Below, one piece after another: positions 389 through 8,300 of a stretch of DNA of 64,000 nucleotides. Both the position numbers and the translations under genes were made by a program. Location of the stretch: NCBI RefSeq assembly GCF_002019635.1, contig NZ_KV917371.1, forward strand, positions 1,966,001-2,030,000. The letters are read 5' to 3'. The stretch is from Metabacillus halosaccharovorans (lineage in GTDB: Bacteria > Bacillota > Bacilli > Bacillales > Bacillaceae). A model generated the notes under the pieces. It saw nothing but the letters and a program-made list of their open reading frames with translations. It made no database searches and had not been told where the DNA came from. Every line of letters begins with the position of its first letter. Position 1 is the stretch's first letter.

Positions 389-2203
389 TCATAATGACAA
401 CAATTTTGCACTATTTTCCTCAAAGTTTTCTTGATTTAAAGATTGAGTAACTGTTAATTTTCTATATAAACCTGGTTGTCGCATTAATTCGTCATGATTA
501 CCTATTTGAACAATTCTACCTTCATCCAATACAACAATGACATCAGCATGTTGGATGGTCGATAATCGATGTGCAATAACTAAAGTTGTTTTTTTCTTCA
601 TTATCCGGTCTAATGCTGTTTTTACGAGGTGTTCTGACTCACTATCCAATGCGGAGGTAGCCTCATCTAACAAAAGAATAGGAGCATCCTTTAATATTGC
701 CCTGGCAATAGCGATTCTTTGTTTTTGACCACCTGAAAGTCGAACACCTCGTTCACCAATTTCTGTGTCATATTGGTCGGGTAAAGACATGATAAATTCA
801 TGAATATTTGCATGGGTTGCTGCACTAATCATCTCTAATTCTGTTATATTAGGGCGCGCTAGTAATAAGTTATCTTTAATTGTACCTCCAAAAAGGAAAG
901 TTTCTTGTGCTACTAGAGCAAACGTACTTCTTAATTCAGATAGTGTAAGTTGAGCAAGTGGTGTATCATCCATTAAAATTTGTCCTGATTGAGGTATATA
1001 AAATCCTTGTATAAGGTGAAATAATGTTGTTTTTCCGGCACCGCTAGGACCGACAAATGCGATTACCTTACCTGTTTGAATTGTAAGGTTTAAGGAATCA
1101 AAAATGATTGTTTCGGGTTCATAGGCAAATGAAACATTATGAAATTGGATCGATGTAAGTACTTTTACTGACTTTTTATATGTAGGAAGTTCATTATCCT
1201 TTAATGGGATATCTAGCACAGTTGATATTCTTTCAACGGCTGATGCCGAACTTTGAAAACTTCCCCAAATTCCAGCTAGCCCTGTTAATGGACTTATTAA
1301 ATGCTGCATGAGAGTAACAAAAGTTAACAACGAACCTACTGTGATTTGTCCATTAGAAACAAAAAAAGCACCTAAACAAAGGCTTATAATGTAAGAAAGT
1401 GAAGATATTAGTCCTCCAACAACATAAAAGGTACCACGCAGTTTTGCATTTTTCATTTCTAAGGCAAAAAAGGAGTGGTTTTGTTGATTAAACTTTCTTA
1501 TAAAAAATTGTTCAACGAGAAAAGTTCGTATGATTGAAAACCCTTGAAACGTGTCGTTCAATAGGCTATTCATATCACCAATCTTATTATAAATTTTCCT
1601 ACTATTGTTTCTAATAAGAATACCGAAGATACCACCTGTGACTACTGCAATGGGTATGATTAGAAGGCTAAGTACTGATAATTGCCAATTTATTTGGAGC
1701 ATATAAATAAAAACAGCTATAGAAATTAAAGGTAATTGAATAAGGTAAATAAGATTGCTGCCTATCACCCCATCAATGCAATTAATGTCATTTGTAAAAT
1801 GAGTCATTAGATCACCAGTACGAAATTTTGAGAGCTTATCTGGTGGTAATAACATAATTTGCTTTAGAACGTGTTCCTTTAAATCCCTTTTTATTTTACT
1901 AGTTACATAAGATTCTAAATATGTGTTAAAGAAGGTAACTAATTGCCCGATCGCTACTAGTAATATGACAATAAGAAGTAATGATTTAATTTTTTCAAAT
2001 TGTCCTGACACAGCAGCATCTGTAATTGTCCCGAAGAACCAGGCGAAGCCGATTGTTAAAAAGATATCAATGAATAAAATAAAAATTAGTCCTGTATATG
2101 ACTTCCAGCTTGAAAGAATAAAAGGGCCTAGTAGTTGGAAGGTTTTCCGGATTCCTTTTAAGTCTATTTCTCTAATAACTGATAATAATTTTGCAGTTAT
2201 CAT
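389..2203 (-). CDS. ABC exporter, fused membrane and ATPase domains
   Basis: A 604-residue half-transporter. The first ~310 residues hold about six hydrophobic segments (type I ABC exporter membrane domain); the ATPase follows, with Walker A GPSGAGKTT near residue 385, signature LSGGQKQR near 489, Walker B ILLLDEATSALD and the switch His in VIAHRLS. No C39 peptidase domain precedes the membrane region, so leader removal must be done by another protein, plausibly the adjacent S26-like peptidase. Its start codon overlaps the stop of that peptidase gene (ATGA), which indicates translational coupling. Likely role: homodimeric export of the matured peptide and self-immunity; this is inferred from context. 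Confidence 0.88.
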   Translation of the reverse strand: MITAKLLSVIREIDLKGIRKTFQLLGPFILSSWKSYTGLIFILFIDIFLTIGFAWFFGTITDAAVSGQFEKIKSLLLIVILLVAIGQLVTFFNTYLESYVTSKIKRDLKEHVLKQIMLLPPDKLSKFRTGDLMTHFTNDINCIDGVIGSNLIYLIQLPLISIAVFIYMLQINWQLSVLSLLIIPIAVVTGGIFGILIRNNSRKIYNKIGDMNSLLNDTFQGFSIIRTFLVEQFFIRKFNQQNHSFFALEMKNAKLRGTFYVVGGLISSLSYIISLCLGAFFVSNGQITVGSLLTFVTLMQHLISPLTGLAGIWGSFQSSASAVERISTVLDIPLKDNELPTYKKSVKVLTSIQFHNVSFAYEPETIIFDSLNLTIQTGKVIAFVGPSGAGKTTLFHLIQGFYIPQSGQILMDDTPLAQLTLSELRSTFALVAQETFLFGGTIKDNLLLARPNITELEMISAATHANIHEFIMSLPDQYDTEIGERGVRLSGGQKQRIAIARAILKDAPILLLDEATSALDSESEHLVKTALDRIMKKKTTLVIAHRLSTIQHADVIVVLDEGRIVQIGNHDELMRQPGLYRKLTVTQSLNQENFEENSAKLLSL

Positions 2204-2676
2204 AGTGAGGCTCCTGAACTTTTTTTATTTATGAGAACTATAGAAAGAAAGTATCTTAGTAGTTTGGAAACAATAGGGAATGAAAGCATAATATAGCTCC
2301 ACATGATAGAGGAAAGATCACTTACATATCTCTTTCTTTTTGTATTTTCTATGGTGGCGAGCTTACCGATTATTTGAGTTTTGTTAATAGGATCATCTGT
2401 AATAAGGTTTGTATCACCTTTAAGGATAAATTGCTTTTGACAAGTGTCTGTTTTTTGGACAGCTAGTAAACGATGAGCTATTAATTGACCAGAGCTGGCA
2501 TGATATAGTAAGACATCTCCTTTTTTTACATTCATTTCATCAAATTGAACAAATCGACATATGTTTCCCTTTTTTATGTAGGGGTACATACTAATTCCAT
2601 ATGAAGGAAGGTCCATCCACCCGTACTTGTTTATAGTTCGTATTAATAACTCAACTGTACCTTGATTAAACTGCAT
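2200..2676 (-). CDS. S26-family (SipW-like, Ser/His type) peptidase, RiPP cluster
   Basis: A 158-residue protein with signal-peptidase boxes: GISMYP with catalytic-candidate Ser29, KKGDVLLYH at 51-59, AHRLL with His68, and LKGDTN at 85-90. A His rather than a Lys in the fourth box is the ER/archaeal (SipW-like) arrangement, not the usual bacterial Ser/Lys one. Unlike SipW there is no N-terminal membrane anchor; a hydrophobic stretch lies near the C terminus (about 124-150). It overlaps the PqqD-like gene upstream and the exporter downstream. Canonical lasso clusters use a transglutaminase-fold B2 protease, so this is a candidate replacement leader peptidase. Function is inferred from motifs and context. 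Confidence 0.7.
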   Translation of the reverse strand: MQFNQGTVELLIRTINKYGWMDLPSYGISMYPYIKKGNICRFVQFDEMNVKKGDVLLYHASSGQLIAHRLLAVQKTDTCQKQFILKGDTNLITDDPINKTQIIGKLATIENTKRKRYVSDLSSIMWSYIMLSFPIVSKLLRYFLSIVLINKKSSGASL

Positions 2677-2932
2677 GTTGAATCAATCCAAAATCCATTA
2701 GTTCACGAAGAAAAACTTCTATATGATTAGAAAGATTTATATTATCTAAATTAAACTGTACTTTTACACTTTTGGTAAGTGCTTCAGTGGACTGAGGGCT
2801 TTCAAGTAGAGACCAGCAAAATCCGCCTATATCATTTAATTTCGTTACTGTAAATTGATTTGTGTTCATAATGATCCATTCTTGATCAAGCTGAACAGTT
2901 TCAAAATCATCTTTTTTTATATATTGTTGCAT
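2666..2932 (-). CDS. PqqD-like RiPP recognition element protein
   Basis: An 88-residue protein of PqqD fold type: the N-terminal beta-rich half (VQLDQEWIIMNTNQFTVTKLNDIGGFCWSLL) is followed by helices ending in FLRELMDFGLI, the usual PqqD pattern in which an aromatic residue sits in the turn before the helical part. Such stand-alone proteins bind leader peptides (lasso B1 proteins). I chose the ATG at 2932, which forms TAATG with the stop of the upstream kinase gene and has GGGAG 11 nt before it; a TTG at 2950 is possible but lacks its own ribosome site. It overlaps the next gene by 11 nt. Confidence 0.8.
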   Translation of the reverse strand: MQQYIKKDDFETVQLDQEWIIMNTNQFTVTKLNDIGGFCWSLLESPQSTEALTKSVKVQFNLDNINLSNHIEVFLRELMDFGLIQHAV

Positions 2933-3744
2933 TAAGAAATCATCTCCCAAAAGGTGTTGTTTTTTTGAAAATAGAGGTCATATACAGGAACTTGATTAAC
3001 TAACGAATGAAGAAGTTTAAATATTTTCCTGGCCTCTGATGAGGATTCTGTCCAGTAGAAAACTTTATCCATTAGTTGAAGCAAACTTTCACCTCTTGGT
3101 AATCTTTCTCTACTATTGGATACGGACTGATTTAATAGGTGAATACTTTTTAGTTTAAATGGACTTGGAAAGCAATCTCCATTTAATTCACTCCTAAACG
3201 GAGAATCGTATGTAACCACATCATTTGAAGTAATCTTAACAATTGTTGCTTCATCTGCCAGTAGTTCTCGGGGATAGGAAAGTCGTGCAACCGTTGATTT
3301 GCCAGCTCCCGAATGTCCGGTAAAAATATGGGCCATCCCATTATTTATTGCACAAGAAGAGTGAATTAGAAGTCCCCAATTTTGGTGGACAATGAAAGAA
3401 CTGTATAGATTCATAAGTGCATGTTTAAGAGCTAGTTCATCATGAATAAAAAGATATGCATTCTTATATGAATGATCGAGTTTAATCAGGTAATCTGCAC
3501 GTTTATAACTTATTTCATTATGGGTTTTAATAACTGAAACATCATAATCTACAAAGGGTAAACCGTATCCGTCTTCAATATAAATGGTTAAATCTGATGA
3601 TGTTTTATTACGATTTTGTATTAAATAGTTATGACGAAAAAATTCTTTGATACCAATAGAGGGTGTGTTAATAAAGAAATGATGTTCTCCAATAGTCAAG
3701 TGTAGATTGTACATACAAGAAGTACTCCTTTTTGGAGAGGTCAA
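2932..3744 (-). CDS. HPr kinase/phosphorylase-like protein of the RiPP cluster
   Basis: 270 residues with a P-loop GHSGAGKST near residue 145, then LLADEATIV as the Walker B-like element. This is the architecture of HprK-related proteins in peptide clusters, for example PadeK of the paeninodin cluster, which phosphorylates the C-terminal serine of its precursor. The precursor encoded here ends in Lys rather than Ser, so either the target residue differs or the protein has another activity. It lies 27 nt after the precursor gene and shares TAATG with the PqqD-like gene. The N-terminal ~130 residues show no catalytic motif that I recognise. Confidence 0.75.
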   Translation of the reverse strand: MTSPKRSTSCMYNLHLTIGEHHFFINTPSIGIKEFFRHNYLIQNRNKTSSDLTIYIEDGYGLPFVDYDVSVIKTHNEISYKRADYLIKLDHSYKNAYLFIHDELALKHALMNLYSSFIVHQNWGLLIHSSCAINNGMAHIFTGHSGAGKSTVARLSYPRELLADEATIVKITSNDVVTYDSPFRSELNGDCFPSPFKLKSIHLLNQSVSNSRERLPRGESLLQLMDKVFYWTESSSEARKIFKLLHSLVNQVPVYDLYFQKNNTFWEMIS

Positions 3745-3771
3745 GATAGAAATTGACCTCGAGTAAAGTTA

Positions 3772-3978
3772 TTATTTGTTTCCCTTTCCTTTGCCGTTTC
3801 CTCCGCCATTGTTATTACGTGGGCCTGTATAAGGATCATTAGGATAGTTAATCCCACCATTACCTTTACCTGGATGATCAAGGTTGCCTCGTCCCTTATT
3901 CCAACTCTGAGCAGTTTCAAACCGAATAGCCTGATGCTCTAAAACCAACGGACGATCGTTATCTGTTTTTGTAGTCAT
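3772..3978 (-). CDS. Candidate RiPP precursor peptide, Gly/Asn/Lys/Pro-rich core
   Basis: 68 residues, first gene of the operon. The N-terminal part (RPLVLEHQAIRFETAQ) matches the lasso leader spacing Y-x2-P-x-L-x3-G-x5-T in three positions: Pro10, hydrophobic Val12 and Thr22; the Tyr and Gly positions are Asn7 and Gln16. The rest is low complexity, rich in Gly, Asn, Lys and Pro with repeated GN and GK units. If Thr22 is the usual -2 residue, the core starts at Gln24 and has no Asp or Glu at positions 7-9, so a standard lasso ring is not evident; the nearest acid is Asp34 (position 11). Peptide class is undetermined. Confidence 0.6.
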   Translation of the reverse strand: MTTKTDNDRPLVLEHQAIRFETAQSWNKGRGNLDHPGKGNGGINYPNDPYTGPRNNNGGGNGKGKGNK

Positions 3979-4189: not shown

Positions 4190-4229
4190 AAAGCACAACC
4201 AGCAGCCATCAAGCCGCCGATTATGCTTT
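4190..4229 (-). terminator. Terminator of sinI-sinR
   Basis: Read on the minus strand: AAGCATAA.. pairs with ..TTGTGCTT, with GGC/GCT inside, followed by TTTTTGTTTTT. It begins at the sinR stop codon. Confidence 0.65.
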
Positions 4230-4563
4230 ATTTATCATTCTCGTTCTGTAATCTCCATTTATTAAATTCCAAAAACTCTTTAAACTGTTCCTTAGACACA
4301 CCGGATTTCATTGCATCCTGTACCAGTTTTGTCCATTCTAAATCGAGCTCTTCTGGATCGGTTTCGTTTTGTTCATTTAGAAGAGTGTTTACTGATACAC
4401 CAAGAACAGATGAGACCTTTTCTAAAAATTGCACAGAAGGATTTGACTGGAGATTTCGCTCAATCGAACTTAGGTAGGATTTTGCGACTCCTGCTCGTTC
4501 TGCTAGTTCAGACAGTGATAGATTTTTTTGTGTGCGATATTTTTTTATTCTCGGACCAATCAC
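4228..4563 (-). CDS. sinR: SinR, master repressor of biofilm genes
   Basis: 111 residues, the usual SinR length. Residues 1-65 form a Cro/C1-type helix-turn-helix (LSLSELAERAGVAKSYLSSIERN); the C-terminal part (LDLEWTKLVQDAMKSGVSKEQFKEFLEFNKW) is the multimerisation and SinI-binding helical hook, and shares its pattern with SinI. SinR tetramers repress matrix operons in B. subtilis. It lies 98 nt downstream of sinI on the same strand. Downstream, where B. subtilis has tasA-sipW-tapA, there is instead the peptide operon, so the local targets of this SinR are an open question. Confidence 0.95.
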   Translation of the reverse strand: MIGPRIKKYRTQKNLSLSELAERAGVAKSYLSSIERNLQSNPSVQFLEKVSSVLGVSVNTLLNEQNETDPEELDLEWTKLVQDAMKSGVSKEQFKEFLEFNKWRLQNENDK

Positions 4564-4661: not shown

Positions 4662-4814
4662 CTATAATGATGATTTTAAAACGGCATCTGACTTTTTGGA
4701 TAAGAACTCTTTAATCTCTTCTACACTGATTCCTAGTTCGAGTGCCTCTAGTATAAGCTCAACCCATTCTTGATCAAGCTGCCCATCGTGTGTGATTTCT
4801 CCAATTATTCCCAT
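4662..4814 (-). CDS. sinI: SinI, antagonist of SinR
   Basis: A 50-residue protein. The segment LDQEWVELILEALELGISVEEIKEFL is the SinI dimerisation/SinR-binding motif and parallels the C terminus of SinR. Start ATG at 4814 is preceded by AGGAGG with good spacing. SinI binds SinR one-to-one and removes it from operators. The gene has a leader of roughly 190 nt that contains a c-di-GMP riboswitch, and a promoter with a Spo0A box, so its expression probably integrates phosphorelay and second-messenger signals (inference). Confidence 0.93.
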   Translation of the reverse strand: MGIIGEITHDGQLDQEWVELILEALELGISVEEIKEFLSKKSDAVLKSSL

Positions 4815-4844
4815 TATCCTTTTCCTCCTAAAATACTAATCTGT

Positions 4845-4930
4845 ATTTCAGGCAGCCCAGCCGTCTTAGTTGTCAACCTGAAGACCCGTGACTTTGCGTC
4901 CCTACTTTTCAATAGGTTTGCCTTTGTACT
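4845..4930 (-). ncRNA. Class I cyclic-di-GMP riboswitch (GEMM-I) in the sinI leader
   Basis: On the minus strand the leader reads GGCAAACC, a hairpin closed by a TTGAAAAG loop (CCTA/TAGG), then GGGACGCAAAG, CACGGGTCT, ACTAAGACGG and GGGCTGCC. These are the GEMM-I landmarks in their normal order and spacing: the GCAAACC strand, the tetraloop hairpin P2, the ACGCAAAG ligand-binding segment, the receptor hairpin P3 (GGGTCT..ACTAAGACGG) and the closing strand. The 3' end lies about 30 nt before the sinI ATG. No U-tract terminator follows, so control may be at translation, stability or an overlapping fold; direction of control cannot be read from the sequence. Confidence 0.9.
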
Positions 4931-5004
4931 GATTAAGTTGGCATCAATTGTTAATAGTATATTTCTATTGTCCTTTATTTATGTATAACTATTTAACTAT
5001 TGAC

Positions 5005-5060
5005 AATGTCTATTATAAAAGAGAATTGTTATCATTGTTTGCAGAACTTTGTCGACGAAA
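5005..5060 (-). promoter_or_regulatory. sinI promoter with Spo0A box
   Basis: TATAAT on the minus strand (5012-5017) has a palindromic 0A-like element TTTGTCGACGAAA (5048-5060) centred near -49. A second, perfect TTTGTCGAA lies at 5192-5200. B. subtilis sinI is also activated by Spo0A~P. The rest of 4931-5253 shows nothing else that I recognise. Confidence 0.5.
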
Positions 5061-5229
5061 TAAATTTTTTTCATTTATCTGTAATTTTTACAATGAATTT
5101 ACAAACGTAAGTGGGGAGTATAGTTTTTATAAGTTTTTCCTACATGAGATTTACAAAAAATTATTAAAGTTAAGAAATGATAAAAATAAAATTTGTCGAA
5201 CGAAAATTCCATTTTCATCATTTGTGTTT

Positions 5230-8072: not shown

Positions 8073-8300
8073 CGGATGAGAATAAGGGGAGAGACTATAG
8101 CTAAGTATAGCGCCGAAGGAGCAAACAATTGTGAATCTCTCAGGCAAAAAGACTCTTATTTGACGCGACTCTGGAGAGTGTTTGCATGAGTTCATGTAAA
8201 CTACCAAAGGGGAAAGCCATATGAGGTGGTAGATGTCTTTTTACAAGACATCTATCAGCATGCATAAGGTAAACTTTCAGGTGAAAAGGACAGAGACTTC
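8073..8300 (+). ncRNA. Tandem glycine riboswitch upstream of gcvT
   Basis: Two aptamers in series. The first (about 8073-8177) contains GGGGAGAG, AGCGCCGAAGGAGCAA, CTCTCAGGCAAAAAGAC and GACTCTGGAGAG; the second (about 8178-8300) contains ACTACCAAAGGGGAAAGCC, GAGGTGGTAG, CTTTCAGGTGAAAAGGACAGAGA. These are the hallmark glycine-aptamer segments, including the GCCGAAGGAGCAA and CTCAGGCAAAA pair. A terminator follows directly, so glycine binding presumably permits read-through into the gcv operon, as in B. subtilis. The rest of 7756-8072 holds no gene. Confidence 0.95.

Follow-up and report, generated by a model that had tools for sequence, protein, structure and literature searches.

The SinI/SinR pair is the textbook switch by which Bacillus subtilis decides between biofilm and motility; in that organism SinI is driven by Spo0A, and c-di-GMP plays a small part in its biofilms. 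Among class I (GEMM) c-di-GMP riboswitches, Vc2 and Vc1 of Vibrio cholerae share with the element analysed here both the architecture of the aptamer and the bases that contact the ligand, and differ from it in their targets and expression platforms (PMC4744006). Bc2, of cap/cbpA in Bacillus thuringiensis, is likewise of class I, and is an ON switch with a surface- or biofilm-related output, as we propose below for sinI; it differs in that its target is a collagen-binding protein and its response that of a transcriptional fusion, whereas here the target is SinI and the platform looks translational (PMC11218506, PMC7423583). In B. thuringiensis, sinI is also reported to be up at high c-di-GMP, on array data described in that article as unpublished (PMC7793685), and in Paenibacillus an “antisense-acting” c-di-GMP-I riboswitch has been placed on a SinR-like gene (PMC9943018).

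A single prior statement of an aptamer paired with sinI was found in the open-licence literature: an RNA-seq study of Bacillus methanolicus MGA3 lists a “(c-di-GMP)-sinI” riboswitch upstream of BMMGA3_08510, the same arrangement of c-di-GMP riboswitch and sinI as the one described here (PMC4342826). The listing consists of a table row and part of a sentence, and the portion of the article around them does not discuss class, mechanism, distribution or a loss in B. subtilis. Beyond that annotation, the present analysis adds the breadth of the pairing, a probable mechanism of translational ON control and, for the Bacillus genus, the remnant; the open-licence literature that was searched gave no mention of a sinI-leader remnant in B. 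subtilis.

We refer to the whole 64 kb stretch of Metabacillus halosaccharovorans DNA that was analysed as the window. Its sinI lies downstream of yqhG, in the order yqhG-sinI-sinR, and the genes and aptamer features of the locus are as follows.

4228..4563, minus strand: sinR, 111-aa biofilm repressor (Pfam HTH_3 and SinI domains; PDB 1b0n chain A, 2.6e-44)
4662..4814, minus strand: sinI, 50-aa SinI anti-repressor (Pfam PF08671, 4.2e-13; PDB 1b0n chain B, 5.4e-6)
4847..4931, minus strand: class I c-di-GMP aptamer, P2/P3 core (RF03167, 62.5 bits; RF01051, 69.0 bits)
4910-4907, minus strand: GAAA tetraloop of P2, read from the sequence within the full-length model match
4922, minus strand: G equivalent to the ligand contact G20 of Vc2, invariant in 19 Metabacillus leaders
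4895, minus strand: A, counterpart of Vc2 A47 and spaced 27 nt from the G20 equivalent, invariant in the 19 leaders
4852, minus strand: C equivalent to Vc2 C92 and also the first base of the anti-Shine-Dalgarno (anti-SD) hairpin, invariant in the 19 leaders

The two genes form a SinI/SinR pair, in that a SinI-domain protein adjoins a SinR bearing both helix-turn-helix and SinI domains; chain A of 1b0n is B. subtilis SinR. Against the NCBIfam SinI equivalog the SinI of the window scores 39.7 of the 80 bits required, under the cut-off. Among the best 80 of 219 loci it is closest to the SinI of Bacillus sp. J37 and of Metabacillus niabensis (96% each), and the named relatives that follow are mostly from Metabacillus.

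The original prediction was of a class I c-di-GMP aptamer in the minus-strand leader of sinI at 4845-4930, to be checked against the Rfam covariance model. Rfam places a full-length aptamer at 4931..4847 (minus strand), no more than two bases away, and the score of RF01051 searched against the 5.40 Mb genome is 69.0 bits for a gathering cut-off of 35 (E 3.9e-13, match 1-87); the genome has eight class I aptamers in all, this one counted; RF03167, searched against the 64 kb window, gives 62.5 bits for a gathering cut-off of 59 (E 2.3e-12). The landmarks then listed, GGCAAACC, the GAAA-loop P2 hairpin, GGGACGCAAAG, the P3 side and GGGCTGCC, are all seen in the sequence. We placed the equivalents of G20, A47 and C92 at 4922, 4895 and 4852 by counting, on an assumed Vc2 numbering in which G20 and A47 lie 27 nt apart, as their equivalents do in the window. 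In Vc2 these three bases contact the ligand (PMC4744006). We judge the predicted element to be a genuine class I c-di-GMP riboswitch of a known kind.

The label that Rfam reports for the site is c-di-GMP-I-GGC, we take it because a single family per clan is retained at each site. That name presumably denotes a G in place of A47, and such a G is visible in the RF03167 consensus. Taken at face value the label is rejected, because in the printed alignment the window has A where the RF03167 consensus has G, and because RF01051 outscores RF03167 (69.0 against 62.5 bits). The same observations bear on whether the aptamer might be a variant for another ligand, of the c-di-GMP-I-GGC family or of the cGAMP type, a reading that has the reported label in its favour. 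Aptamers of the cGAMP type carry an A at the G20 equivalent, where the window has G, and this, together with the A at the A47 equivalent and the higher RF01051 score, makes a change of ligand very unlikely. The genome encodes 11 GGDEF domains.

Between the aptamer and the sinI start codon lie two helices that compete for one strand, at the following positions.

4929..4932, minus strand: 5' strand of P1, UCAG, pairing with CUGA at 4851-4848 (arm-swap comparison over 108 leaders)
4848..4851, minus strand: 3' strand of P1, CUGA, common to P1 and the anti-SD hairpin and hence the toggle (arm-swap and blocking tests)
4843..4852, minus strand: 5' arm of the anti-SD hairpin, CCUGAAAUAC, forming 10 bp with 4836-4827, conserved in relatives
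4827..4836, minus strand: 3' arm of the anti-SD hairpin, GUAUUUUAGG, forming 10 bp with 4852-4843, conserved in relatives
4824..4829, minus strand: Shine-Dalgarno sequence of sinI, AGGAGG, its first three bases inside the anti-SD hairpin

P1 and the anti-SD hairpin are mutually exclusive, since both use CUGA at 4851-4848, so that the helix a ligand would stabilise and the helix that covers the Shine-Dalgarno sequence have one strand in common, which is the arrangement of a translational ON switch; the hairpin covers only the first half of the Shine-Dalgarno sequence. We infer the ligand, the direction of the response, its translational level and its effect on biofilm, and we consider it very probable that the sinI leader contains a class I c-di-GMP riboswitch that switches translation ON. 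In the ligand-free state, P1 would give up its 3' strand to the 10-bp hairpin CCUGAAAUAC/GUAUUUUAGG downstream, which would sequester the first half of the Shine-Dalgarno sequence, and little SinI would be made. With c-di-GMP bound, P1 (UCAG/CUGA) would be held, the base of the hairpin blocked and the Shine-Dalgarno sequence left free for SinI to be made; SinI would then bind SinR and release the biofilm genes that SinR represses. c-di-GMP favours biofilm formation, and this sign matches that of the proposed switch.

Conservation and modelling both bear on the toggle. Across the 19 Metabacillus leaders neither the contact bases nor the two hairpin arms vary, apart from an A-to-G substitution in the 5' arm at a base that faces U, and the aptamer flanks do vary. 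We compared the pairing of each leader's own arms with that of arms exchanged between genera in 108 distinct leaders (123 of 145 were parsed and 22 left out). Own arms paired better than swapped arms by 1.46 kcal/mol for the hairpin (85 of 108 leaders, p 7e-13) and by 1.02 kcal/mol for P1 (88 of 108, p 4e-12), in statistics that, like those of the blocking test below, count related leaders as independent. In the 54 divergent leaders whose 5' arm had changed, own arms were the better in 39 for the hairpin and in 43 for P1. When the 3' strand of P1 was barred from pairing, the modelled openness of the Shine-Dalgarno sequence rose from 0.32 to 0.54, with an increase in 83 of 108 leaders, and blocking four random bases as a control gave 0.31.

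This blocking test, with leaders cut near the start codon and a random-block control, was set up after a null result obtained with coding sequence included: with the first 40 nt of coding sequence in the fold, the Shine-Dalgarno sequence of the window was unpaired at 0.60 against 0.56 in shuffled sequences, and 160 of 300 shuffles were as low, because the coding bases compete with the anti-SD hairpin. In the same fold, forcing P1 cost 11.6 kcal/mol relative to the free fold (-22.8 instead of -34.4), a modelled difference that the ligand and tertiary contacts would have to make up. Together, the arm-swap and blocking tests support a predicted toggle between P1 and the hairpin.

The aptamer could instead bind c-di-GMP and yet act as an OFF switch, or work through transcription termination or RNA stability, and other class I types show that such platforms occur, with Bc2 responding as an ON switch in a transcriptional fusion and Bc1 associated with terminators in B. 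thuringiensis (PMC11218506). We nevertheless regard this as unlikely here: between aptamer and Shine-Dalgarno sequence there is no terminator-like T-run in 107 of 108 leaders (one has such a run), and the conserved hairpin, whose 5' arm contains the P1 strand, runs into the Shine-Dalgarno sequence. An effect through RNA stability may still play a part.

Upstream of the aptamer, the region that would drive sinI transcription contains three short candidate elements.

5012..5017, minus strand: TATAAT, probable -10 box of the sinI promoter, found upstream of the aptamer in 19 Metabacillus regions
5048..5056, minus strand: Spo0A-box-like site GTCGACAAA, matching the assumed consensus at 8 of 9 positions
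5192..5200, minus strand: Spo0A-box-like site TTCGACAAA, matching at 9 of 9 positions

With TTTGTCRAA as what we take to be the Spo0A-box consensus, the 19 regions (at most 300 nt each) hold 26 Spo0A-box-like sites with at most one mismatch, against 5.9 expected from single-base shuffles. The TATAAT and these sites, upstream of the aptamer, suggest that Spo0A would set the transcription of sinI and c-di-GMP its translation. That c-di-GMP could act directly on SinI levels, besides Spo0A, had been part of the original prediction, and the anatomy of the aptamer supports it in so far as it fits such control.

Other elements surround the locus. Directly downstream of sinR, at 389-3978 (minus strand), lies a lasso-peptide-like cluster that includes a weak HprK-related match, a PqqD-like ORF, a signal-peptidase-like ORF, a putative ABC-transporter-like ORF and the following feature.

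3978-3772, minus strand: precursor-like ORF, 68 aa, no Pfam match

A GTTCTTT resembling a SinR box, on an assumed consensus, stands 31 nt ahead of the start of this ORF. Of the 19 loci of the genus (L011-L029), 9, this genome counted, have homologues of the precursor close to sinR. Two TasA-like genes are found elsewhere on the contig that carries sinI, and a glycine riboswitch (RF00504, 71.9 bits) lies at 8076-8165 (plus strand) ahead of a gcvT-like ORF.

A search of related sinI leaders for the same aptamer, which had also been proposed, returned it widely. In Metabacillus the aptamer is just upstream of the best SinI gene in 19 of 21 genomes (all except G004 and G009), and SinR comes next after sinI in 18 of these 19 loci. 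At locus L024, of genome G020, the aptamer and sinI are still beside yqhG and SinR is non-adjacent, some 3.5-3.6 kb off. In four sister genera of the same family the aptamer is at sinI in every genome (7/7, 6/6, 1/1 and 1/1; 15/15 together).

Across the order, the sample comprised 159 genomes, 108 of them with a SinR at 1e-30 and 103 of those outside the family. Searched with a leader model built from Metabacillus, 62 of the 103 carried, next to sinR, a leader scoring at least 40 bits, and extending the stretch added two (64/103); these 64 genomes span 26 of 35 families and 34 of 56 genera. The remaining 39 of 103 yielded no such leader next to sinR; in 21 of them the sequence fetched includes another ORF with a SinI domain, still without an aptamer. 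Locus L323 (genome G158) reached 34.1 bits, under the 40-bit threshold, and was scored negative; a model made from Metabacillus sequences may overlook divergent leaders. The order-level loci show two layouts, tandem and convergent, the latter with sinI running towards the end of sinR, and YqhG is upstream, within the fetched flank, in 7 of the 44 tandem loci outside the family. The convergent loci (L301-L315) have the aptamer and sinI aimed at the tail of sinR, and the “antisense-acting” riboswitch of Paenibacillus could have the same layout, its sinI having escaped annotation (PMC9943018).

Among the best 80 of 219 named SinI loci, Rfam finds c-di-GMP-I directly upstream of the matched gene in 59. 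Leader-model matches of at least 40 bits number 63 in the same set: 29 in tandem with SinR, 5 convergent, and the remaining 29 lacking SinR in the 450 nt that follow, and therefore SinI genes away from SinR have the aptamer too. These SinR-distant leaders (L085, L094, L104, L105, L117 and 24 more named loci) mostly precede a SinI-domain gene, and one of the loci, L148, has SinR at 903 nt. On this gene arrangement, c-di-GMP may feed several SinR-like repressors within one cell. Two genomes of one other family (f18; loci L162 and L166) carry two consecutive aptamer-sinI units upstream of sinR. By these counts the predicted pairing of aptamer and sinI is common across the order and not special to this genome.

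The Bacillus genus departs from this pattern. Its sinI-sinR loci, that of B. subtilis included, have the same yqhG-sinI-sinR order and the same anti-SD hairpin sequence as the window, but the Rfam aptamer is at sinI in none of 44 genomes, one of which (locus L269) encodes a SinI identical over 57 of 57 residues to that of 1b0n. The earlier remark that no riboswitch controls sinI in B. subtilis thus holds as far as the Rfam aptamer is concerned, with the qualification that the output hairpin persists in the leader. Searched as an exact pattern, the hairpin with its Shine-Dalgarno sequence has a single site in each of 70 of 80 family genomes (37 of 44 for the Bacillus genus); the pattern reversed, as a control, has none in any of the 80. 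For 69 of these 70 sites sinR follows on the same strand at a distance of 205-277 nt, and the last, in G020, is upstream of its sinI, with sinR about 3.5-3.6 kb away. A looser pattern recovers the hairpin at 43 of 44 Bacillus-genus loci, the exception being L300. An origin of the hairpin by chance in the Bacillus genus was rejected on the 70 genomes against none for the reversed pattern and on the placement of the sites near sinR.

The Metabacillus leader model also picks up 43 of the 44 Bacillus-genus loci at E up to 1, with low scores (11 to 35.5 bits) that come in part from the hairpin. Resemblance to the aptamer further upstream is less secure than the hairpin. Seventeen of the 44 loci bear the GACGCAAGC mark and have aptamer pieces upstream (AUCAG, AAAAGCAA and GACGCAA), a leader type that is presumably that of the B. 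pumilus group. For remnant scoring, 11 of the 44 loci were taken and 7 scored (L290, L276, L297 and L281, whose variant hairpins the pattern missed, were left out), with the aptamers of Metabacillus and of genera g3 and g5 as queries and 500 shuffles each. The shuffles scoring as high, in that order of queries, numbered 1/3/71 for L288 and 5/4/79 for L256; 94/0/50 for L275, 77/41/69 for L268 and 266/390/405 for L254; and 500/477/77 for L274 and 36/212/15 for L292. Among the seven, then, L288 and L256 alone represent a leader type clearly above chance, in two of three queries. In the B. subtilis-like leaders L268 and L254 aptamer similarity was not above that of the 500 shuffles, and the hairpin and a few preceding bases are all that they have in common with aptamer leaders. 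The long leaders of L256, L288 and 15 loci like them resemble one another strongly over the 17 genomes, and in them the remnant may have become part of a new structured RNA.

As background only, a SinR tree of 88 rows and 109 columns, with many weak forks, was made from 8 Metabacillus, 7 sister-genus and 11 Bacillus-genus sequences and otherwise one row per genus and state. It makes the Bacillus genus one clade (100/100), placed with weak support (83/73, 92/73) among aptamer-bearing genera; presence of the aptamer requires 23 changes on it against a shuffled mean of 29.0, and the tree does not decide between one gain and several. Most likely, to judge from these leaders, the Bacillus genus lost the aptamer and retained the output hairpin.

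In genus g28, of the leaders of the sister loci L252 and L253 one is intact (56.1 bits) and the other decayed (27.5 bits), a possible second case of aptamer decay. Such a decayed copy in the sister species of an intact one, albeit in another genus, and the hairpin without aptamer in the Bacillus genus both lend something to the idea that the aptamer of the window is itself a non-functional relic, as is apparently the state in that genus. Its score lies well over the RF01051 cut-off, however, and contact bases and hairpin arms have been kept in 19 genomes whose flanks vary, so that we hold a relic to be extremely unlikely and a working switch at sinI to be the preferred reading.

On balance we lean, with some reserve, towards a broader picture in which ON control of SinI by c-di-GMP would be old and general wiring of the Bacillales, the Bacillus genus would have lost the sensor and kept its sinI leader as a fossil, possibly reused for another signal, and orphan aptamer-SinI genes would give SinR-like repressors additional inputs from c-di-GMP. 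If this is true in many relatives, c-di-GMP enters the biofilm decision at its core, the anti-repressor, and the model organism B. subtilis has lost that input, which would help explain the unequal weight of c-di-GMP on biofilms among the Bacillales.
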